Assembly: GCA_017539165.1 (NCBI GenBank)
Contig: JAFYHN010000082.1
Coordinates: 1-34,099, forward strand
Length of the DNA: 34,099 nucleotides
From: Eubacterium sp.
Lineage (GTDB): Bacteria; Bacillota; Clostridia; Lachnospirales; Lachnospiraceae
Direction: 5' to 3'
The notes under the pieces are model-generated. The model was not told the origin of the DNA, did not search any database, and saw only the letters and a list, made by a program, of their open reading frames with translations. The stretch's first letter is position 1, and every line of letters starts with the position of its first letter. A program made the position numbers and the translations under genes. Below are positions 3,134-33,107 of the stretch, one piece after another.

Positions 3134-3216
3134 TTAACGAACGTTATAAAATGGTGTTTTATGACGAAAATAAAAGTAGTACTCGAAGGATAAGAGTGAT
3201 AAGGGGAGAGTTAAGT

Positions 3217-12435: not shown

Positions 12436-12484
12436 CATGTGCTTGTTGGATATGATTAGAGAATAGTGTAGAAGGGTGTTTACT

Positions 12485-12835
12485 ATGAATAAAGAATTTG
12501 TATGTATATGCTGCCCTATGGGATGTAATCTGAATGTAGAATTATCTGACACGAATGAAGTGATCTCAGTTTCAGGAAATACGTGTAACAGAGGAAAGGA
12601 ATATGCGGTTTCCGAAGTTACTGCTCCTACAAGAATGGTTACCTCGACAGTCAGGACTATGCAGAACGTTAGTGTTCCAGTTAAAACAAAAGATCCAATC
12701 CCGAAGGGTAAGATATTTGAATGCATGGACGCTATTAAAAAGGCAAAGGTTGAGCTTCCGGTAAAGACAGGCGATGTCCTTATTAAAAACGTTGCTGACA
12801 CAGGTGTGGATGTTATCGCTACGCGAAGTTTTTGA
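12485..12835 (+). CDS. DUF1667 cysteine-rich protein, third subunit of the oxidoreductase operon
   Basis: A 116-residue protein with a cysteine cluster at 7, 9, 10 and 14 (CICCPMGC) and a further Cys34 (NTCNRG), which together could bind an iron-sulfur cluster or metal. The rest (TAPTRMVTSTVR, VPVKTKDPIPKGKIFE) matches the DUF1667 family, repeatedly found beside GlpA-like and NAD(P)/FAD oxidoreductases in Clostridia and Thermotogae. Its exact biochemical role is not established to my knowledge; an electron-transfer subunit is the natural inference. The ATG at 12485 has AAGGGTG 6 bases upstream, while the GTG at 12476 would overlap that site. No terminator hairpin follows. Confidence 0.8.
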   Translation: MNKEFVCICCPMGCNLNVELSDTNEVISVSGNTCNRGKEYAVSEVTAPTRMVTSTVRTMQNVSVPVKTKDPIPKGKIFECMDAIKKAKVELPVKTGDVLIKNVADTGVDVIATRSF

Positions 12836-12862: not shown

Positions 12863-12891
12863 GTGACAAATATATCTAAATGTGGTATACT
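12863..12891 (+). promoter_or_regulatory. Promoter of the Hsp70-GrpE fusion gene
   Basis: GTGACA (12863-12868), a 17-base spacer and TATACT (12886-12891), with TGG just before the -10 (extended type). Transcription should begin near 12898, giving a leader of about 39 bases. No CIRCE element or other long inverted repeat lies here. Confidence 0.72.
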
Positions 12892-12936: not shown

Positions 12937-14352
12937 ATGGGAACAATTATTGGGGTACATTTTTGGAACAGAATTGCACGACTTTGCTTCTGTGACGCAG
13001 AGTCTGTAAGTGTAGCTGAAGTTAATCTTCCTTCAGATATCAAACGTCTCGATATAGCCGCAAATGAATATGCACTTAAGAAGGCATTTGAGGTTATCGA
13101 TGAATTTCTCAAGGAGAAAGCAGGGATAAGCAACTACTCGCTCGTCATTGCGATTTCTGACGATATGGGGCTGAAGGAGATTCAGGGGATATATTCTGCG
13201 GCTCGTGAATTCGGGGTTAATGTTGTGAGAACAGTAACCGAGACATTAGCCATGGCTTACTTCTCATATGTTGAATACGGTCTTGGTGGAAATGCCCTTA
13301 TGGCATTTGTTTCTCCTGCAAAGCTTGGAATATCTGAATATTATCTGGAACAGGGGATAGTTGAGAAACTTGATACCTACTTCGCTGGAAGATGGAATGG
13401 ATCGTCTCTCGGAAAGAGTGAGTTTATCCATTCATACAGTGATAAGATATTTGATGCGACTGCAGCTGATTATGTGATATGTTCTGGAACTATGGAGCGA
13501 AGTCTCGACTTTGATTTTGCTCTGAAGAATTATATCAAGTCTTCAGGTACATTTATCAACAAGAACATCGAACTTAAAGCTATAGATAATCAGTGCGTTA
13601 TCGAGGGAATCGGATTCATATGCGGTAAGCTCGAAGGAAGAACGGCTTTCCAGGGACTCGCAGCTATCGATTCGGCTTCACCATACGAGCTTATTCTATC
13701 GGTGAACGGAGAGATGTATCCGCTGCTTGATTCGGAGACAGTCGTTCCGATTAAGAAAACGATTGAGATCAACAAGTTCCCTGAGCCTGTTCGTTCATTT
13801 AACGAGATTAAGCTTTTCGAATACAGGAAGAAGGAATTCGTGCTTGTTTCGGATATTCATGTATCTAAAGATAAGCTCGAGGAATTCTACAAGAAGGCTT
13901 CGACTGTTAAGATCGAGGTTGACGATGACAAGAAATTAACGCTGACATTTGTCGATATTCAAAGTAGAAGTGAGTATGTGATAAATGTACTCGAAGCTTC
14001 TGCACAGGATGATGCTCTGGAGGAGAAAGAGGAAGATGTTCCTGGATTTATCACGAAGATGCTTCCGATAATCGACAATCTGGAGTATGCTGCAAACTAT
14101 GCAAAGGATGATGACAGTCCGTATACACAGGGTATCGTTCAGTCATATAATAATGCTGTTGAGATACTTAAGAAGAATGGAGTTGAGATCATACATGGCG
14201 AAGGTGAGCCATTTGATTACAATTTCCAGACAGCAGTAGCGCATGTAACAGATGTTGATCTGCCGGACAATATCGTTAAGCAGGTTATGCAGGCAGGATA
14301 CGTCTATAAAGGCAAGGTTCTAAGACCAGCGTCAGTCGTGGTTGCGAACTAG
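12937..14352 (+). CDS. Degenerate Hsp70-like protein fused to a C-terminal GrpE domain
   Basis: This 471-residue protein reads as a shortened Hsp70 followed by GrpE. The start MGTIIGVHFWNR aligns with Dna[13 protein letters not shown], but the phosphate loop is gone. TETLAMAYFSYVEYGLG (~101-117) aligns with Dna[13 protein letters not shown], and LMAFVSPAKLGISEYYLEQG (~121-140) with the second phosphate motif, where DLGGGTFD is lost. CVIEGIGFICGKLEG (~220-234) matches Dna[16 protein letters not shown]. Residues ~245-350 look like the substrate-binding beta domain. After an acidic linker (~354-370), residues 371-471 align end to end with residues 118-219 of GrpE in this window (MLPIIDNLE, AGYVYKGKVLRPASVVVAN). 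Most of NBD lobe II, the SBD-alpha lid and the GrpE long N-terminal helix are missing. ATP hydrolysis is unlikely. It has GGAG 8 bases upstream, its own promoter and a terminator. The function is unknown; it may be a chaperone co-factor. Confidence 0.8.
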   Translation: MGTIIGVHFWNRIARLCFCDAESVSVAEVNLPSDIKRLDIAANEYALKKAFEVIDEFLKEKAGISNYSLVIAISDDMGLKEIQGIYSAAREFGVNVVRTVTETLAMAYFSYVEYGLGGNALMAFVSPAKLGISEYYLEQGIVEKLDTYFAGRWNGSSLGKSEFIHSYSDKIFDATAADYVICSGTMERSLDFDFALKNYIKSSGTFINKNIELKAIDNQCVIEGIGFICGKLEGRTAFQGLAAIDSASPYELILSVNGEMYPLLDSETVVPIKKTIEINKFPEPVRSFNEIKLFEYRKKEFVLVSDIHVSKDKLEEFYKKASTVKIEVDDDKKLTLTFVDIQSRSEYVINVLEASAQDDALEEKEEDVPGFITKMLPIIDNLEYAANYAKDDDSPYTQGIVQSYNNAVEILKKNGVEIIHGEGEPFDYNFQTAVAHVTDVDLPDNIVKQVMQAGYVYKGKVLRPASVVVAN

Positions 14353-14395
14353 TACTTCATTAGTATATTTTATATTGTTCTAAATATGACAGTTG

Positions 14396-14440
14396 AAAAA
14401 GTATGACAGTTGAAATCAGATTTCAACTGTCATACTTTTT
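14396..14440. terminator. Perfect 20-bp bidirectional terminator
   Basis: A perfect 20-bp stem beginning AAAAAGTATGACAG and ending in the mirrored T-run, with a 5-base TCAGA loop. It separates the Hsp70-GrpE fusion from the convergent uxaC. Thirteen bases of the left arm (ATGACAGTTGAAA) also occur directly upstream at 14386-14398. Confidence 0.92.
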
Positions 14441-14471
14441 TAATCAGGTAAATATTATGTAAACTAAGAGG

Positions 14472-15905
14472 TTATATACCAAAGTATCTCTTTGCGTTGT
14501 AGTAGGAGATTCCTTCAACAATCTTCTTGAGTGAGTTTTCGTTGTTAGGATATTCGCCGTATTCAACCCATTCGCCTATCAGATTGCACATGATTCTTCT
14601 GAAGTAATCATGGCGTGCATAGGATAGAAATGATCTCGAATCAGTCAGCATACCAACGAAGTTTCCTAGTATACTGAGACTTGCACATGAACGCATCTGT
14701 TCCTCCATGCCATCCTTTGAATCGAGGAACCACCATGCAGCTCCCATTTGAATCTTTCCGGCTATCTCAGGTGACTGGAATGCCCCAATACAGGATCCAA
14801 TAAGATTGAAGTCACTGTGGTCGAGAGAGAAGATGATAGTCTTAGGGAGTTCATCTGTTTTATCCAGTTCAGAAAGTAATCTTGCCAGTTCTATTCCGCA
14901 GGAACTCTTCGCAATGATGTCATAACCTGTATCTGGTCCGACAGTTTTGAACTTTTGTTCATTTACATTTCTAGTAACCGAATAATGTAGTTCCATAACT
15001 ATATTCTCTCGGTGATATATCTTACCGAGTCTGAGAAGTATAAAAGTCTGGTACTTATCGATCTCTTCATTTGAGAGTTTTTCTCCATTCATTGCTTTCT
15101 TGAAAACTGTATCAGCTTCTTCTTCAGAGCAACGTGAAAATGGAATGTAATCAAGTCCGTGATCGCTTGCTTTGCAGCCTTTTTCTTTAAAGAATAGTAG
15201 TCTCTTCTCCAATGCATCTACAACATCAACTGCAGTTTCGAGAGATGTTTCACCAACTGATCCTGCAAGCTGTTGGATATATTCTCTGAATCCATCTTTA
15301 TTTATATTGATGGCTTTATCTGGCCTGAAAGAAGGTCTTACCTCAAACTTCACATCAGGATCAGCGGCTATCTTATCATGCCACTCGAGGCTGTCGACAG
15401 GGTCATCTGTTGTTCCGACAAATGAAACATTTGACTTCTCAATGATTCCACGGACTGTGTATGAAGGATCATTTTGCAGAATGTCAGAAGTTTTATCCCA
15501 TACGGCTTTGGCATTATCTGAAGTCAGAGCCTCATTTATTCCAAAATACTTCTTCAGCTCGAGATTGCTCCAGTGATACATCGGATTACCGATGGAGAGT
15601 TCGAGAGTATCAGTGAATCTGAGAAATTTCTCGTAAGGATCGACATTTCCTGTAATAAGATTCTCATCTATTCCGTTAGACCTCATAAGACGCCACTTGT
15701 AATGGTCTCCACTGTATGTTCCATCTGGCTGTTTGCCGCCGAGCCAGATCTCTGAAATGTTATCAAATCTTTTATTTTCATATATTTCTCTGGGTGATAA
15801 ATGACAGTGATAATCAATAATAGGCAGATTCTCTGCATAAGAGTAGAAGAGTCTGACAGCTGTCGGATTCTTCAGCATAAAATCTTCGCCCAGAAATGTA
15901 TTCAT
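14472..15905 (-). CDS. uxaC: Glucuronate (uronate) isomerase
   Basis: The 477-residue protein is the usual length of UxaC, which converts D-glucuronate to D-fructuronate and D-galacturonate to D-tagaturonate in the cytoplasm. The N-terminal PIIDYHCHLSPREI (metal-site HCH at 33-35) is the family signature of this amidohydrolase-fold enzyme. Other typical stretches are WHDKIAADPDVKFEVRPSFRPD and ELHYSVTRNVN. The start at 15905 is chosen because GAAGGAGG lies just upstream; the longer frame from 15968 would run through the operator and promoter. It is divergent from the LacI-type regulator and shares with it a 14-bp operator motif. The kinase and aldolase for later steps lie beyond the regulator; the oxidoreductase and dehydratase are not in the window. 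Confidence 0.93.
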   Translation of the reverse strand: MNTFLGEDFMLKNPTAVRLFYSYAENLPIIDYHCHLSPREIYENKRFDNISEIWLGGKQPDGTYSGDHYKWRLMRSNGIDENLITGNVDPYEKFLRFTDTLELSIGNPMYHWSNLELKKYFGINEALTSDNAKAVWDKTSDILQNDPSYTVRGIIEKSNVSFVGTTDDPVDSLEWHDKIAADPDVKFEVRPSFRPDKAININKDGFREYIQQLAGSVGETSLETAVDVVDALEKRLLFFKEKGCKASDHGLDYIPFSRCSEEEADTVFKKAMNGEKLSNEEIDKYQTFILLRLGKIYHRENIVMELHYSVTRNVNEQKFKTVGPDTGYDIIAKSSCGIELARLLSELDKTDELPKTIIFSLDHSDFNLIGSCIGAFQSPEIAGKIQMGAAWWFLDSKDGMEEQMRSCASLSILGNFVGMLTDSRSFLSYARHDYFRRIMCNLIGEWVEYGEYPNNENSLKKIVEGISYYNAKRYFGI

Positions 15906-15940
15906 ATTACATCCTCCTTCGGGATAACCCTCACTATTTT

Positions 15941-15954
15941 TGTAAGCACTTACA
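15941..15954. promoter_or_regulatory. LacI-family operator at the uxaC promoter
   Basis: TGTAAGCACTTACA: 6-bp inverted arms around a 2-bp centre, identical to the site at 16053-16066. On the minus strand a TTGACA (15983-15988) and a TACAAA -10 (15959-15964, spacer 18) put the uxaC transcription start near 15952, inside this site. Binding would block initiation. The LacI-type protein encoded next door is the likely ligand-responsive binder. Confidence 0.78.
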
Positions 15955-15958
15955 TTTA

Positions 15959-15988
15959 TTTGTATCATTTGTCTGATAAACTTGTCAA
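15959..15988 (-). promoter_or_regulatory. uxaC promoter
   Basis: Read on the minus strand: TTGACA, 18 bases, TACAAA. The -35 lies inside a perfect 13-bp palindrome (AACTTGTCAAGTT, 15979-15991) that could be chance or a second protein site. The -10 matches consensus at only four of six positions. Confidence 0.55.
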
Positions 15989-19185: not shown

Positions 19186-22100
19186 ATGAAGATAAGAAGA
19201 ATGTTGCTGTCTCTTCTGGTTTCCGTCGGCATGATCATCGGAACGTTTTCTGGGGTGCCGGTTCAAGCGTCTGAGCCAAAGCTTGTTTTGGCTCGAGAAG
19301 ATGGATGGAATGAAGGAGAGAATAAACCAAACAAACCTGAAGATGAAGCAGCTTATTCAGATGAGTTTGATATGGATGTTAAAGAGAATATCCATATTTA
19401 TATCGGTACGTCTATTAATGATGCGGTTAAAGCAAAGCAATTAGACAGTATAACCATAAAGTATAAGAATGGTGATGAAGCTGATTATGATATATCTCCT
19501 TTTATATCTGGAAGAGATGATGAGACTGGTGAAGATATTGTACCTGATGAAGGATTCTTCAATCTCAGGATTGATAATTGCGGAGAATATACGATTGAAT
19601 ATGGAGAAGCTTCTGCAACAATTCGTGTTAATATGCCTAAGTATGGCATCTATAGTTCTGAGGACTGTGAATTGAAGGATTTAATTCCAGTGGAAGATGG
19701 AAGAATTCGTTTCTCTTCTTCTAAGGAGTCTACTTTCTATGCTCATTTGAATCTGGGAACATGGACTGATGATAAAGGTGAGATTCATGATGTTGAGCCT
19801 GAAGAGTTTGAATTTTCTGTTGATGTACCTGAAGAATTTAGTGAATCTAAAATAAATGACAGAACATGGAAGATTACCATTCCATCGGGGATAATAGATT
19901 GGAAACATGTTGATCTTAAGTCGACTATTAAGTGGGAAAAGGATGGTGCTCCTGAATATGATGGAAGGGGTATAGATTTTCAACCTAAGTTCTCGGGGCT
20001 TGTAGTTTGTTGGGATGATAATGGCAGATTCCGTGATACCCCTGATGATTACTGCAAAATATTTAATGAAGTGCCTGTTAAGACACATAGAAGACTTAGT
20101 GTAGCAATGATGGATGAGGATGAAGCAGGTGATTCTGTTGTCAAGCCATTTACGGGTACTCTGACATGCGATAATAAAGCAGTTACAATAAATAAATCAA
20201 AAGACAATGATAACGAAGTAGACGGTCTATATGATTTTGATATTTCGACATCTGGAACATATACAATAAAGGCTGAAGGTGTTCAGGACAACGCAACTGT
20301 CACATTGAATGTTTCATTAACAAGAGCGGGTATTTATACTTCGGCAGAACCTTCAGAAGATACTCTTGTATGTTCTGAATGGGACAGATTGATTATAAAA
20401 GAAGGCACGAAGTATTACATCATTCCTAGATCTTTTGATGATGAGTATGAAGTTAAAAAAGTAGAGATTAATTTTGCTTCTGAACTAGGAAAAGACAAAT
20501 ATACTTGGGAAAAAGGAAAAAACTCTGGTGATCCGATATGTGAACTCGTAGTCGATAATCTGGTTGATTACGAATTAGGTGATGCTATATGTATCGATAT
20601 AGAATTTGAAAGAAAAGACAATCCTGATGACTGTTATCGTTTTAATACTCGAATTAATGTACTGAAAAGCCGTGAAGGAATGCTTGTTTCTGGCTGCTGG
20701 TATGAAGATGATTTTCGACAGGATGTTAATGATTTTTCTAAGCAAAGCAGTGCAGTCACATTCTGGGATACAGGTATTTGTCTTGGAATTGCTGCAGAGA
20801 TAGACGGGCAGAATATTATAACGCCTATAACAGACATATCTAAACTTGATATAGTTAGAATAGTTGATGGCGAAGAAACAACAGTTTCATCTGATGTGGC
20901 GCATTTAAATAATACATATGAATCCTGGGATGATAAACAACAAAAGGATATAGAAAAGAAGACTCAACCTGGTGTTTATAGATTAAGAATCGAAGAGCCA
21001 GGTGAATATAGAATCAAATACAAAAACGATTCTGATCCTATGTTTGTCACTATATATGTAGATGATCCTGCAGGAGCATATTATACAGATAAGCCAGAAT
21101 CTGGGAATGCTATGAAAAACATCATAAACCCAAATAAAGACGAGAATTTTGAATATGATGAGAATAATAGAACATTCTACTTTGCTTTCAGACCAATACA
21201 GGAAAAAGACGATAAAGGAACAGTAATAAGAAAGTATGCTTATGGTAATGGCCAGACTGAAGAACGACAAGATGGAAATGGTAGAAATTATAATGCAGCT
21301 ATTGAATCAAATGGATTTGTTCTATGTAAAAACTATCACGATGACGAGAAGAATATAGATGTATTAGAACCTATTGAAGATTCTGATTATGCTTTGATTG
21401 AAAAAATACAAGAAAATATAGGTGAATATGAGGTTTATAAGGTCACACTGGGAGAAACTTATGATGGATGCGGCCTTATGACAAGACTTGTTAAGAAGAA
21501 ACTCGAATGGAAGGGAAACGGATATTCTGACCAGTATTTAGATGATGGATGGGATGATTTCTATATAAATATTAAAGAGAAAAGATCAGGTCTAATGATA
21601 GGCTGGTTAGATGGAGAGTCCTTCCCGGAAGATTTAAGCAAATTTGATAAAACGAAAGATCTAGATATCTGTTGGGAACATCGTGTTGCGATGGGAATGT
21701 TTACAGAATCCGAAAATGGAGATAGCGTTACCCCTATCACTGGAACTCTTTCACTTACAGATAAAGCCGGTAAACCTGTTGATGATAATGCATCTATTTC
21801 TGAAATTGGTAATGGTATATATAAATTTAAAACATCTGTATGCGGCCAGTATAAAGTTACATATACCACTGACGATGGTGAATATTCTGCTTATATTTTC
21901 TCAAAACTCCCGGATATAGCATTTTATTCAAGCAATGTTCCATCTGATCTGAATATAGTGAATTCTGGAGCTGAAGAATACATATATGAAAAGGGAGATA
22001 CTTATTATCTTTGTCATAATATAAATGAATGGCAGTTAAAGAATAAACTAGATAGTATAACTGTAAGTAGTCCTAGCTTTGAGGAGGAAAATGTCAAAAA

Positions 22101-24384
22101 TTATAAAGCTTCTGAACTTATAAATAATAATGTTTTGGATGAAATAGTAATAACTGATGATATGGAGGAAGCATATTATAGGATTACTTTAAACTGGAAA
22201 GATAATGGACATGAACAGAAAGACTTCCATTTTATGAAGGCGGCTGACGGTTTTGCTGTTGGATGGCCGGGCAATAATGATGTATGCAGTACTAATCCGA
22301 AGGATTATCAGGAACAGATTCATGTGAATGTGCGCTGTCATGAATGGAGAACGTTTGCTAATATTTCTATAAATGATGAGGGTGAGAAGGTAGTGGAGCC
22401 GATTGCGGCTACTGATATTAACCTTGCTAAATTCGAGATTACAGATATTGAAGGCAATAATGTTGATCCTGAAGAAGCTTATATAAAATTTGCTAATAAA
22501 GACGGATCTGATCTTGATGGTATCTTTGAGTTATATTTCAAAAATCCTGGAATATATAGGGTTTACTATGGCGATGAGTATGTAACAGTCAGAGTTGCTT
22601 TCGTTGAGGTGGCATTTGCTAATAAAGAAGGTACATATAATGAAAAAGACTATGAGATATTAAGTGATGATTTATTTACAGCAGTTATGCAGCCTGTAGA
22701 TGAAGAGGATTTCTATATTGCGACGTTTGATGGCTCAGGTATGGGTGAGAATTCATATAATAAGGCTACGATTACTGGAATAAAAGCTGATAATGGCATT
22801 GATAAGTATTTTAAATGTATGATAAGTGCTGACGGTTCTAGTGCTTCGGTTCATGTTGATAGGGAAATCGGAGCTAATAGAATAGAATTTGAAGTTACAT
22901 ACAAATGTATAGAATATGAGAAAAATGATTCTACATATGTTCCAAGAGGAGATGGTTGGGATGGAAAAGATACTTTCGCAATTGAAATTCCAGAAGATCC
23001 TAGAGAGCTGATTGAAATAGGTAACGATGTTAGCTGGAATTATGAAGAACCGTTCATATTTGATAATGAAGAAAAAGGTGTTGAACTCACTGGCTTTGAT
23101 GAGGAATCAGCTAAGTTTATTGACGTAACTTATACAGATAATAAGAAGACCGATATAGGTAAGTACACTGCTAAGGCTGAGCTTAAGATTAAGGATGATT
23201 ATAAGACAGAATACAAACTACCTAGACAGATTCCAGAGGAACTGACCAGTCTTGAGTGGGAGATTGTAATTCCGCTAAATATCAAGGGTCTGATAGATGG
23301 TATCAATGCGCTTCCTGACAAAGATAAGATCAAAATAACTGATAAAGCAAATATTGAATCAATCAGAAAATCTTATGATGTTCTGAAGGATTTCGAGAAG
23401 GCAGTAGTTGGTAAAGATGTACTTAAGAAACTGACCGATGCAGAAGCAACAATAAAGGATATTGAAAAGAATGCTAAAGATGCAGAACAGAAGGCAACGG
23501 ATGATAAGCTGGCGGCAGAAAAAGTAAATAAGCTTATAAATGCACTTCCAGCTGCTACATCAGTCAAGACTACGGATGAAGCGAATATTAAGGCTGCAAG
23601 AACTGCATATAATGCATTGACCGCTGATCAGAAAAAGCTTATAAGTGCAGATGTCCTTAAAAAGCTGACAGATGTTGAGTCTGCCCTGGATAAATTAAAG
23701 AAGAACGAAGAGAAGCCAAAGAAATTACTTAAGGTTGGAGATAATATTGTTGATTCAAATTCGAAGGCAACTTATAAGGTTCTGGTTGTCGGAACCAAGT
23801 CGAAATCCGGAGAGGTCAGTATTGTAAAGCCGAATGATGCTAAGGTAAAGAAGTTCAGTATTCCAAAGAATATCTATGTTGATGGTGTTACTTATGCAGT
23901 AACTGAGATAAGCGCTAATGCATTTAAAGGAAAGAATCAGCTTACTACTGTTACAATTCCTGCAACTGTAACGAAGATTGGTAAAAATGCATTTTATGGT
24001 TGTAAGAAGCTTAAGAAAGTCAAAGTTCCGAATATAGTTACATCAATTGGAGTAGGTGCGTTCCAGAACTGTACTTCACTTACTCAGGCTACGCTGGGTA
24101 AAGGAATTACTGCTATACCGAATGACGCTTTTAGTGGCTGTAAGAAACTGACCAGTATCGTGATTCCGGTGGAAGTTAAAACTATCGGTAAGCGGGCATT
24201 TTACGGATGCAGTGCTCTGAAGAATATAACAGTGAAGACGAAGAAGCTTAAGAGTGTCGGAAGTAATGCTTTGAAGGGAATCAGAAAAGATGCTGTTATA
24301 AAGGTTCCGAAAGCTAAAGTTAATGATTACAGGAAAGTATTTAGGAAGAAAGGACAGGCAGCTACGGTCATGGTTGTCGGTTAG
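19186..24384 (+). CDS. Giant secreted repeat protein with BspA-type LRR tail
   Basis: The 1732-residue precursor starts after GAGGAGGTAAAGGG and has a signal peptide (MKIRRMLLSLLVSVGMIIGT to VQAS), so it is extracellular. Residues ~65-1240 hold about five related modules of 220-300 residues. Four of them open with FSGLVVCW (269), REGMLVSGCW (496), RSGLMIGW (800) and ADGFAVGW (1020). Each contains a segment such as GEYRIKYKNDS or GQYKVTYTTDDG, usually followed by a Tyr-Thr/Ser-rich stretch (GIYTSAEPS). I do not recognise this module. Residues ~1366-1425 and ~1444-1505 are two helical repeats of FIVAR-like type (LINALP, AY--L, VLKKLTD). From ~1514 to the end is a BspA-type LRR_5 domain (ISANAFKGKNQL, IGKNAFYGCKKL). 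It is homologous to the tail of the protein at 3217-5460. No LPXTG anchor is present; adhesion or wall association is an inference. Confidence 0.82.
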   Translation: MKIRRMLLSLLVSVGMIIGTFSGVPVQASEPKLVLAREDGWNEGENKPNKPEDEAAYSDEFDMDVKENIHIYIGTSINDAVKAKQLDSITIKYKNGDEADYDISPFISGRDDETGEDIVPDEGFFNLRIDNCGEYTIEYGEASATIRVNMPKYGIYSSEDCELKDLIPVEDGRIRFSSSKESTFYAHLNLGTWTDDKGEIHDVEPEEFEFSVDVPEEFSESKINDRTWKITIPSGIIDWKHVDLKSTIKWEKDGAPEYDGRGIDFQPKFSGLVVCWDDNGRFRDTPDDYCKIFNEVPVKTHRRLSVAMMDEDEAGDSVVKPFTGTLTCDNKAVTINKSKDNDNEVDGLYDFDISTSGTYTIKAEGVQDNATVTLNVSLTRAGIYTSAEPSEDTLVCSEWDRLIIKEGTKYYIIPRSFDDEYEVKKVEINFASELGKDKYTWEKGKNSGDPICELVVDNLVDYELGDAICIDIEFERKDNPDDCYRFNTRINVLKSREGMLVSGCWYEDDFRQDVNDFSKQSSAVTFWDTGICLGIAAEIDGQNIITPITDISKLDIVRIVDGEETTVSSDVAHLNNTYESWDDKQQKDIEKKTQPGVYRLRIEEPGEYRIKYKNDSDPMFVTIYVDDPAGAYYTDKPESGNAMKNIINPNKDENFEYDENNRTFYFAFRPIQEKDDKGTVIRKYAYGNGQTEERQDGNGRNYNAAIESNGFVLCKNYHDDEKNIDVLEPIEDSDYALIEKIQENIGEYEVYKVTLGETYDGCGLMTRLVKKKLEWKGNGYSDQYLDDGWDDFYINIKEKRSGLMIGWLDGESFPEDLSKFDKTKDLDICWEHRVAMGMFTESENGDSVTPITGTLSLTDKAGKPVDDNASISEIGNGIYKFKTSVCGQYKVTYTTDDGEYSAYIFSKLPDIAFYSSNVPSDLNIVNSGAEEYIYEKGDTYYLCHNINEWQLKNKLDSITVSSPSFEEENVKNYKASELINNNVLDEIVITDDMEEAYYRITLNWKDNGHEQKDFHFMKAADGFAVGWPGNNDVCSTNPKDYQEQIHVNVRCHEWRTFANISINDEGEKVVEPIAATDINLAKFEITDIEGNNVDPEEAYIKFANKDGSDLDGIFELYFKNPGIYRVYYGDEYVTVRVAFVEVAFANKEGTYNEKDYEILSDDLFTAVMQPVDEEDFYIATFDGSGMGENSYNKATITGIKADNGIDKYFKCMISADGSSASVHVDREIGANRIEFEVTYKCIEYEKNDSTYVPRGDGWDGKDTFAIEIPEDPRELIEIGNDVSWNYEEPFIFDNEEKGVELTGFDEESAKFIDVTYTDNKKTDIGKYTAKAELKIKDDYKTEYKLPRQIPEELTSLEWEIVIPLNIKGLIDGINALPDKDKIKITDKANIESIRKSYDVLKDFEKAVVGKDVLKKLTDAEATIKDIEKNAKDAEQKATDDKLAAEKVNKLINALPAATSVKTTDEANIKAARTAYNALTADQKKLISADVLKKLTDVESALDKLKKNEEKPKKLLKVGDNIVDSNSKATYKVLVVGTKSKSGEVSIVKPNDAKVKKFSIPKNIYVDGVTYAVTEISANAFKGKNQLTTVTIPATVTKIGKNAFYGCKKLKKVKVPNIVTSIGVGAFQNCTSLTQATLGKGITAIPNDAFSGCKKLTSIVIPVEVKTIGKRAFYGCSALKNITVKTKKLKSVGSNALKGIRKDAVIKVPKAKVNDYRKVFRKKGQAATVMVVG

Positions 24385-29316: not shown

Positions 29317-29343
29317 TTAGCACTCGTGGTTTTTGAGTGCTAA
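29317..29343. promoter_or_regulatory. CIRCE operator (HrcA binding site)
   Basis: A perfect CIRCE: TTAGCACTC, nine bases, GAGTGCTAA. It overlaps the start of the transcript and lies 34 bases before the hrcA start codon. HrcA dimers bind this element and repress the operon at normal temperature. Confidence 0.97.
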
Positions 29344-30445: not shown

Positions 30446-31105
30446 ATGGCTAAAAAAAGTATGAGCGACAAGCTGAGAAATATTAAAGAAGGGGAGATCG
30501 TTCCGGTTGAACAGAAGATTACTTTCAACGAGGGTGAAGAGACTCCTGGAACATCAGCTAAAATCGAAGAAGAAATCACTATAGGACCAGAGATTGATCC
30601 TGATGCAGCCAGACCGAAACCAACACCAAAGAAAAACAGACGTGGTGGTAAAGCGATTCAGGCAGAGCTTGAGAAGCAGAAAGAACTGGCTGAAGGCAAT
30701 AAAGAAAAGTATACGAGACTCCTTGCTGAGTTTGACAACATGAGAGCTCGTAACGAGAAAGAGAATTCTCAGATGGGTGATAAAGGTGCGATGGAGGCAA
30801 TTGAGAAGATTCTTCCGGTTATCGATAACCTTGAGAGAGCTCTTGAGAATATCACTGAAGAAGATAAGACTCCTTTTGAAGAAGGTGTCGAAAAGATATA
30901 TAAGCAGCTTATGGACACGCTCAAGGATATGGGTATTGAGCCGATGGATGCCGTAGGCGGTGAATTCGATCCAACATATCACAACGCAGTTATCCATGTA
31001 GAGGATACAGAAGTCGGTGATAACTTAGTTGTAGAAGAAATGCAGAAGGGCTACATGTTTAAAGACCAGGTGCTCAGACACGCAATGGTTAAGGTGGCAA
31101 ATTGA
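30446..31105 (+). CDS. grpE: Nucleotide exchange factor GrpE
   Basis: The 219-residue protein has a charged, poorly conserved N-terminus, a long helical dimerisation segment (AIQAELEKQKELAEGNKEKY, then TRLLAEFDNMRARNEKE), a four-helix-bundle region (KILPVIDNLERAL) and the C-terminal beta-wing (EFDPTYHNAVIHVED, GYMFKDQVLRHAMVKVAN). GrpE releases ADP from DnaK. Its coding sequence abuts hrcA with AAGGGGTG as ribosome binding site in the hrcA end. Its C-terminal ~100 residues also align with the C-terminus of the Hsp70-like fusion at 12937-14352. Confidence 0.97.
   Translation: MAKKSMSDKLRNIKEGEIVPVEQKITFNEGEETPGTSAKIEEEITIGPEIDPDAARPKPTPKKNRRGGKAIQAELEKQKELAEGNKEKYTRLLAEFDNMRARNEKENSQMGDKGAMEAIEKILPVIDNLERALENITEEDKTPFEEGVEKIYKQLMDTLKDMGIEPMDAVGGEFDPTYHNAVIHVEDTEVGDNLVVEEMQKGYMFKDQVLRHAMVKVAN

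Positions 31106-31238: not shown

Positions 31239-33107
<1,869 letters not shown>

Follow-up and report, generated by a model that had tools for sequence, protein, structure and literature searches.

The window (the whole stretch of 34,099 nucleotides of DNA that was analysed) contains a gene in which a reduced relative of Hsp70 is joined to the head domain of the nucleotide exchange factor GrpE. Among the genomes surveyed this architecture is real, conserved and confined to one genus; the Hsp70 and GrpE ancestry of the two halves, the loss of the ATP-binding motifs, purifying selection and coexistence with a canonical GrpE are likewise observed. Since it lacks defining features of each family, the protein is not a full GrpE, nor is it a full Hsp70. 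The reading that we find likeliest is that of a dimer acting in trans, in which a nucleotide-free, lidless Hsp70 relative carries a stalkless GrpE head, and we would put its probability at roughly 0.4; a scaffold role is the main rival.

The gene is a single, intact open frame of 471 codons with an ATG start, so that the continuous frame joining a DnaK-like protein to a GrpE domain, first proposed in a sequence-only reading, is indeed there (Table 1). Its nucleotide-binding-domain (NBD) core was delimited by a collinear hhalign alignment to 26 Hsp70s from residue 50 and by a MAFFT alignment for residues 1–50. This is followed by a region aligned with the substrate-binding β domain (SBD-β), a linker and the GrpE head.

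Table 1. Coordinates of the fusion gene, its parts and related features (window positions unless a locus is named).
Feature	Position	Strand	Basis or remark
Whole gene, pseudo-Hsp70–GrpE fusion, 471 aa	12937..14352, stop included	+	Frame, relatives, dN/dS 0.064 against L004
Reduced Hsp70 nucleotide-binding-domain core, residues 1–245	12937..13671	+	hhalign, MAFFT, motif counts; boundary approximate
SBD-β-aligned region (Hsp70 substrate-binding β domain), residues 246–352	13672..13992	+	hhalign; no lid helices after it
Short acidic linker, residues 353–368	13993..14040	+	Replaces lid and GrpE stalk
GrpE head, residues 369–471	14041..14349	+	PF01025, PDB GrpE chains, column counts
Promoter-like site GTGACA-17-TATACT, TG before second hexamer	12863..12891	+	Consensus match only
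Terminator-like hairpin, 25 pairs, U-rich 3′ arm	14392..14444	+	−34.5 kcal/mol, z −8.0
CIRCE operator ahead of hrcA	29317–29343		0 mismatches
Canonical GrpE, same genome, downstream of hrcA	30446..31105	+	Pfam
dnaK, after canonical grpE	31260–33107		
Stand-alone mini pseudo-Hsp70	L161:877–1932	−	Also L163–L174
Longer pseudo-Hsp70–acidic linker–GrpE fusions	L038:711–2768, L039:4937–6958	+	
Second, shorter Hsp70 (582-codon frame) after 1262-codon frame	L155:1557–7060 (contig C95, window's genome)		

The C-terminal part is plainly derived from GrpE. Pfam PF01025 matches residues 348–470 over model positions 40–164 of 165 with 97 bits (cut-off 25.8, E 1.3e-27); none of the 25 NCBIfam models listed, from 29 that matched, reaches its own cut-off. 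The earlier alignment of residues 371–471 with residues 118–219 of the canonical GrpE was borne out, residues 369–471 being 42% identical to that protein (30791–31102, E 6.8e-19). Three significant bacterial PDB GrpE chains (4ani_A, 1dkg_A and 3a6m_A) match from residues 363–369 on, and the alignment of E. coli GrpE with the fusion begins at about its residue 88. The head comprises the short helices of the four-helix bundle and the β-wing. By alignment, the long helical stalk that precedes the head in GrpE is absent, and the residues ahead of the head align with SBD-β.

The head is also the best conserved part of the protein, with 28 of the 37 invariant columns of alignment A2 falling within residues 377–469 (A2 and profile A4 comprise all but one of the 37 proteins of 471-residue type, the exception being L029 from genome G167, which is identical to L026 at 462 of 469 positions). 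When 35 fusion rows (L042, with an insertion in the head, was left out) were set beside 30 canonical GrpEs of the genus, P97, D100, G122, A156, V157, Q175, G177, Y178, R186, V190 and V192 (E. coli numbering) were identical in 30/30 and 35/35 rows. The R104 column is Arg in all 30 canonical rows and Tyr in all 35 fusion rows. H154 is kept in four fusion heads and changed in 31 (Gln in 30); none of the 35 retains E173 (34 have Val) or M189. Because of these four changes the DnaK-facing surface of the head may be altered. According to one study, G122D disrupts the interaction with DnaK, and the stretch I91–D110, which contains R104, is listed as touching DnaK (PMC12915176).

These columns bear on the main rival, in which the head would have no exchange activity and would serve as a dimerisation or scaffold module for two pseudo-Hsp70 arms that bind a specific client or regulator independently of ATP. 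Such a role would fit the missing stalk, and likewise the uniform Tyr at position 104 (L037, a divergent fusion, also has Tyr there; the longer fusions L038 and L039 have Phe, with H154 and E173 retained in the heads of these two) together with the other replacements at positions fixed in canonical GrpE. A mini pseudo-Hsp70 without the GrpE part exists in 13/61 genomes, and for that reason seems to function independently. However, conservation of the head goes further than dimerisation alone would seem to require, and G122 and β-wing residues are retained; we consider a scaffold a serious but somewhat unlikely alternative to action in trans.

Kinship of the N-terminal half with Hsp70 had been read from its order, and here single sequences and profiles gave different answers. 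Searched singly against Pfam and PDB chains, the fusion protein had no significant Hsp70 match; of 36 N-termini put through Pfam one at a time, one gave a hit to PF00012, with E no better than 0.11, and the subfamily profile A4 matched no chain among PDB sequences. Taken alone, the single-sequence outcome would refute the fusion as first proposed, but the relatives of the protein reverse it. L037, a divergent fusion from G155, passes the Pfam HSP70 cut-off (25.0 against 20.6 bits, E 7.1e-6) with its residues 214–340 on model positions 363–485, the SBD-β-aligned region of Table 1, and in NCBIfam it touches the DnaK model with E 1.8e-6, although its score falls well short of the cut-off set for that model. 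The N-termini of L037 and the 471 type align with a hhalign probability of 99.7, and in a separate search they match at 22% identity (E 1.4e-14); E-values from pairwise hhalign refer to one profile and not to a database. The stand-alone relative L161 also passes the Pfam cut-off, with 26.4 bits.

When the 471 type and its relatives were combined in one profile and compared with the 26 Hsp70s (25 of 30 loci plus the window's DnaK, the latter duplicated by L103), the probability was 98.6% and the score 125.4 over 303 collinear columns, running in DnaK order from NBD through hinge to SBD-β; 60 column shuffles of this profile scored at most 23.5. The N-terminal 350 or so residues do, then, follow DnaK in shortened and diverged form. 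The 471-type subfamily alone scored 38.7 against Hsp70 (probability 33), the best of 100 shuffles reaching 32.8. The profile of the stand-alone family gave probabilities of 95.8 with the 471 type (292 columns), 94.0 with Hsp70 (284 columns), 17.3 with L037 and 89.6 with L038/L039. The links of L038/L039 are weaker and uneven (hhalign probability 5.5 with A4 and 1.3 with L037). There was no Pfam HSP70 match in L038, L039 or L043, and profile A5, built from the L038 and L039 N-termini, gave two chance-level matches to PDB sequences and touched two DnaKs of the family (E 2e-4 and 3e-4) and one unrelated signalling-type protein (8e-4). Another actin-like fold was considered and rejected: MreB (15 of 16 loci) aligned over 48–63 columns with scores of 26.8–41.0, the combined profile giving 41.0 over 63 columns, as against 272–303 columns and 38.7–125.4 for Hsp70. 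In one of these comparisons the GrpE control set numbered two sequences. We conclude from the profiles that Hsp70 ancestry of the N-terminal half is established through its relatives.

What this half has lost is the machinery for nucleotide. The three ATP-binding motifs (phosphate-1, phosphate-2 and adenosine) occur in 0/40 fusions and 0/13 stand-alone relatives, as against 25, 26 and 26 of the 26 canonical Hsp70s, the third nucleotide motif scored being of the GGSTR type. All 36 rows have His in the column of Asp8, and all 36 retain Glu171 and Gly342 (DnaK numbering). By alignment, subdomain IB is shortened and the IIB region and α lid are gapped or unaligned, and about 245 residues stand ahead of the SBD in the fusion, where DnaK/Hsp70 has about 385. 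The Hsp70 half therefore appears to have lost its ATP-binding site. In addition, the V436 column of the DnaK peptide pocket is Asp or Glu in 28/36 rows, which, in a weakly aligned stretch, argues against a normal hydrophobic pocket.

GrpE is described as opening DnaK by touching IA, IB and the hairpin of IIB (PMC10825016). Since the ATP motifs are absent, IB is short and IIB is absent, the fusion's own Hsp70 half would have no evident nucleotide to exchange and should not be a docking site for the head in the known way; the exchange partner should be another protein. Self-exchange within one chain is accordingly disfavoured, and the proposal of a chaperone served by its own exchange-factor domain did not hold up: given 0/40 ATP motifs, a short IB, no IIB and a stalkless head, it looks unlikely.

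The 471-type fusion was found without internal stops in 37 of the 61 genomes of the genus, two of them single-contig (G153 and G155, the latter also carrying L037), and in 20 of 31 high-quality genomes (at least 90% completeness, at most 5% contamination). Because related genomes share the fused order, an artefact can be dismissed. Comparison of the window gene with L004, whose protein is 90% identical, gave a dN/dS of 0.064 for the whole, 0.070 over residues 1–352 and 0.057 over the GrpE head, and both halves are therefore maintained; in the pair L005–L007 dS is saturated, so that there is no overall ratio, and the head alone gives 0.071. That the gene is a product of misassembly or misannotation, or a pseudogene in decay, might have been suspected from the empty single-sequence searches with the N-terminus, but the 37 genomes and the overall dN/dS refute this, and we give it practically no weight.

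Beyond the genus, profile A4 was run on 299 genomes of the family (two from the genus, the window's own among them, and 297 from other genera); its one match was the window's own genome, and no fusion was found in the 297. A GrpE search of the family led to inspection of a further 21 genomes with more than one match, a lone GrpE fusion elsewhere being detectable only by the profiles. Other long GrpE-bearing frames in the family (L085–L088) are by eye unlike the Hsp70 fusions. Three of these loci, from three other genera (L086, L087 and L088), hold gene clusters for a protein that by eye resembles a metallo-β-lactamase, a diverged GrpE-like protein and an Hsp70, and in L087 the metallo-β-lactamase-like and GrpE-like parts lie in one 801-aa frame. 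The four matches that carry names are metagenome-assembled, two from Eubacterium sp. (water buffalo rumen) and two from uncultured Lachnospiraceae. A phage or plasmid origin was also considered: residues 1–352 gave no match in either collection.

A separate canonical GrpE is present in 25 of the 37 fusion genomes (in two as partial genes) and in 19 of the 20 high-quality ones, one of these 19, G186, having a fragment only; the fusion is therefore an addition to the canonical GrpE and not its replacement. In the fragmented genome G186 an AroA-like frame (by eye; L082:344–1585, plus strand) runs into the last residues of a GrpE, which may be a misassembly. On a GrpE tree of 31 genomes, itself weak, genomes with and without the fusion interleave by clade, a pattern compatible with early origin and losses. 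In the tree built from the heads, L037 groups with the 35 fusion rows on a single branch (98/95), and L038/L039 lie among the canonical rows on long branches that the program flagged as unreliable. A single origin of all fusions therefore does not follow from it. Both trees have few columns and open forks.

The fusion has relatives within the genus. The stand-alone mini pseudo-Hsp70 (about 352 aa) has no GrpE and no ATP motifs and a well-conserved SBD-β region. At E < 1e-50 it is found in the 13 genomes mentioned, together with the fusion in six and in two copies in G165, the second of which was left out of our set of 13. In the 299 family genomes its profile, A6, had matches in 284, none better than 2e-9, and among the matches listed these were mostly DnaK-sized frames. 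Longer fusions of 674–686 aa, whose acidic linker spans some 200 residues, occur in a further two of the 61 genomes (G160 and G185), and a similar gene lies downstream in both. A separate observation was made in G161, where a degenerate GrpE-like frame of 425 aa is followed by two Hsp70-like genes (L081:3596–8746).

In the window the fusion gene sits between a DUF1667 gene (12476–12835) and a glucuronate isomerase gene on the opposite strand (14472–15968). A promoter-like site upstream and a strong hairpin after the stop (Table 1) suggest that it is transcribed alone; eight such promoter-like sites lie in the region, with 5.5 expected from shuffles, and a separate consensus scan did not list the hairpin. 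The canonical hrcA, grpE and dnaK genes are 15–19 kb away. Heat-shock control of the fusion by HrcA was rejected: scanning with the CIRCE motif gave no site near the gene, the sites in the window being the perfect one before hrcA and one with three mismatches at 3176. The perfect site overlaps the TTG start listed for hrcA (29333), so that the true start is probably further downstream. Elsewhere in the window (19186–24384), a 1732-codon protein has a weak C-terminal match, far under cut-off, to a leucine-rich-repeat adhesin model.

In the surroundings of 38 fusion genes, 410 frames in all, queries with DnaK, GrpE, DnaJ and the second Hsp70 found nothing but the fusions, apart from the window's hrcA operon (gene picking left out the fusion frame itself in L043, L044 and L047). 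An operon partner was not supported, since gene order is conserved only within subclades. The subclade neighbours, assigned in L127, L132 and L045 by inspecting the sequence and not by profile, are a zinc transporter with a tRNA methyltransferase, an SbcCD-like nuclease pair, and NAD synthase with MiaB and MutS.

In the reading that we favour, the GrpE head would dimerise as usual through its short helices and dock on the NBD of a genuine Hsp70, most likely DnaK, where it would open the cleft or compete with the normal GrpE. The two pseudo-Hsp70 arms would occupy the place of GrpE's stalk and tails, and their β domains would hold a client or partner, thereby bringing client and exchange head to DnaK together. 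Dimerisation, DnaK binding, exchange activity and client binding are thus what we infer for the fusion. Action in trans is favoured by the conserved head with G122 kept, by the lack of a docking surface on its own chain and by strong purifying selection on both halves. Against action on DnaK count the replaced head residues at R104, H154, E173 and M189, the missing DnaK-system neighbours outside the hrcA operon and the missing CIRCE before the gene, and the acidic V436 column, weakly aligned as it is, also tells against the trans reading; the lost stalk and changed R104 speak against full GrpE function.

The partner might instead be the second, shorter Hsp70, to which the fusion would be dedicated. 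The window's genome encodes one directly after a frame whose start is J-domain-like by eye, and an altered head surface would fit a different partner. However, the same query also matches frames of this size class where the genus lacks the fusion (G150, G154, G163, G164, G179 and G194 are examples), so that the two are not coupled, and HscC-type Hsp70s are not known to need GrpE. We think such a partnership improbable.

A further possibility is that the stalkless head is a decoy or brake, occupying DnaK without promoting client release and so tuning the DnaK system. The head is kept, and the stalk and tail that are lost are, in two studies, the parts tied to client release (PMC10803776, PMC12915176). 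For M. tuberculosis GrpE the first of these studies reports that basic residues of the stalk mattered most and that stalk-patch mutants lost most refolding activity, head-contact mutants having modest or no effect (PMC10803776). A decoy would, however, leave the conservation of the pseudo-Hsp70 half (dN/dS 0.070) unexplained, and we attach little weight to it beside the trans-acting dimer.

Set against known systems, the fusion shares with GrpE (PF01025) the head, with P97, D100, G122, R186 and Q175-x-G177-Y178, and differs in having the pseudo-Hsp70 in place of disordered tail and stalk and Tyr at R104. With DnaK/Hsp70 (PF00012) it shares the collinear order of NBD core, hinge and SBD-β, and differs in its short IB, in IIB and lid that are absent by alignment and in ATP motifs absent from 40/40. 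A comparison with the eukaryotic Hsp110/Grp170 is plausible: there too a relative of Hsp70 is joined to an Hsp70-exchange function, putative in the fusion. Hsp110 keeps a working nucleotide site, needs ATP and is not known to have a GrpE domain; the exchange part of the fusion would be the GrpE head, and its lost motifs leave it without the intact nucleotide-binding domain that is the docking interface of Hsp110. According to a 2025 review, Hsp110 is a holdase and an exchange factor that exchanges through an NBD–NBD interface (PMC12987570). GrpS of Myxococcus xanthus resembles the fusion as an extra GrpE homologue beside another GrpE, but is described with a conserved GrpE domain, no Hsp70 half being mentioned in the available part of that paper (PMC10313047).

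The sequence-only reading had known of no described system of this kind, and our search agrees: in the titles, abstracts and text passages of open-access papers that were examined, no description of an Hsp70–GrpE or DnaK–GrpE fusion, or of a degenerate Hsp70 with GrpE, was found. To that extent the domain architecture is undescribed. The 2025 review presents Hsp70s as keeping one domain plan, and GrpE as sharing tail, stalk, short helices and β-wing across kingdoms (PMC12987570). This family breaks both rules in one chain, pairing an Hsp70 devoid of nucleotide motifs and lid with a GrpE that lacks its stalk, and it is conserved across much of the genus beside a normal system. A bolder view, which we hold only tentatively and think rather unlikely, is that a line of miniaturised ATP-free Hsp70 relatives arose in this Lachnospiraceae genus and that at least one branch of it acquired the head of a GrpE. 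The outcome would be a bacterial counterpart of Hsp110 assembled from other components, with a client-holding arm and a head that would serve DnaK in trans. If the head still acts on DnaK, an Hsp110-like machine would have been reached here independently, and the fusion would offer a natural experiment on what in GrpE serves exchange and what serves client release; if it does not, the genus would harbour a lineage of pseudochaperones.
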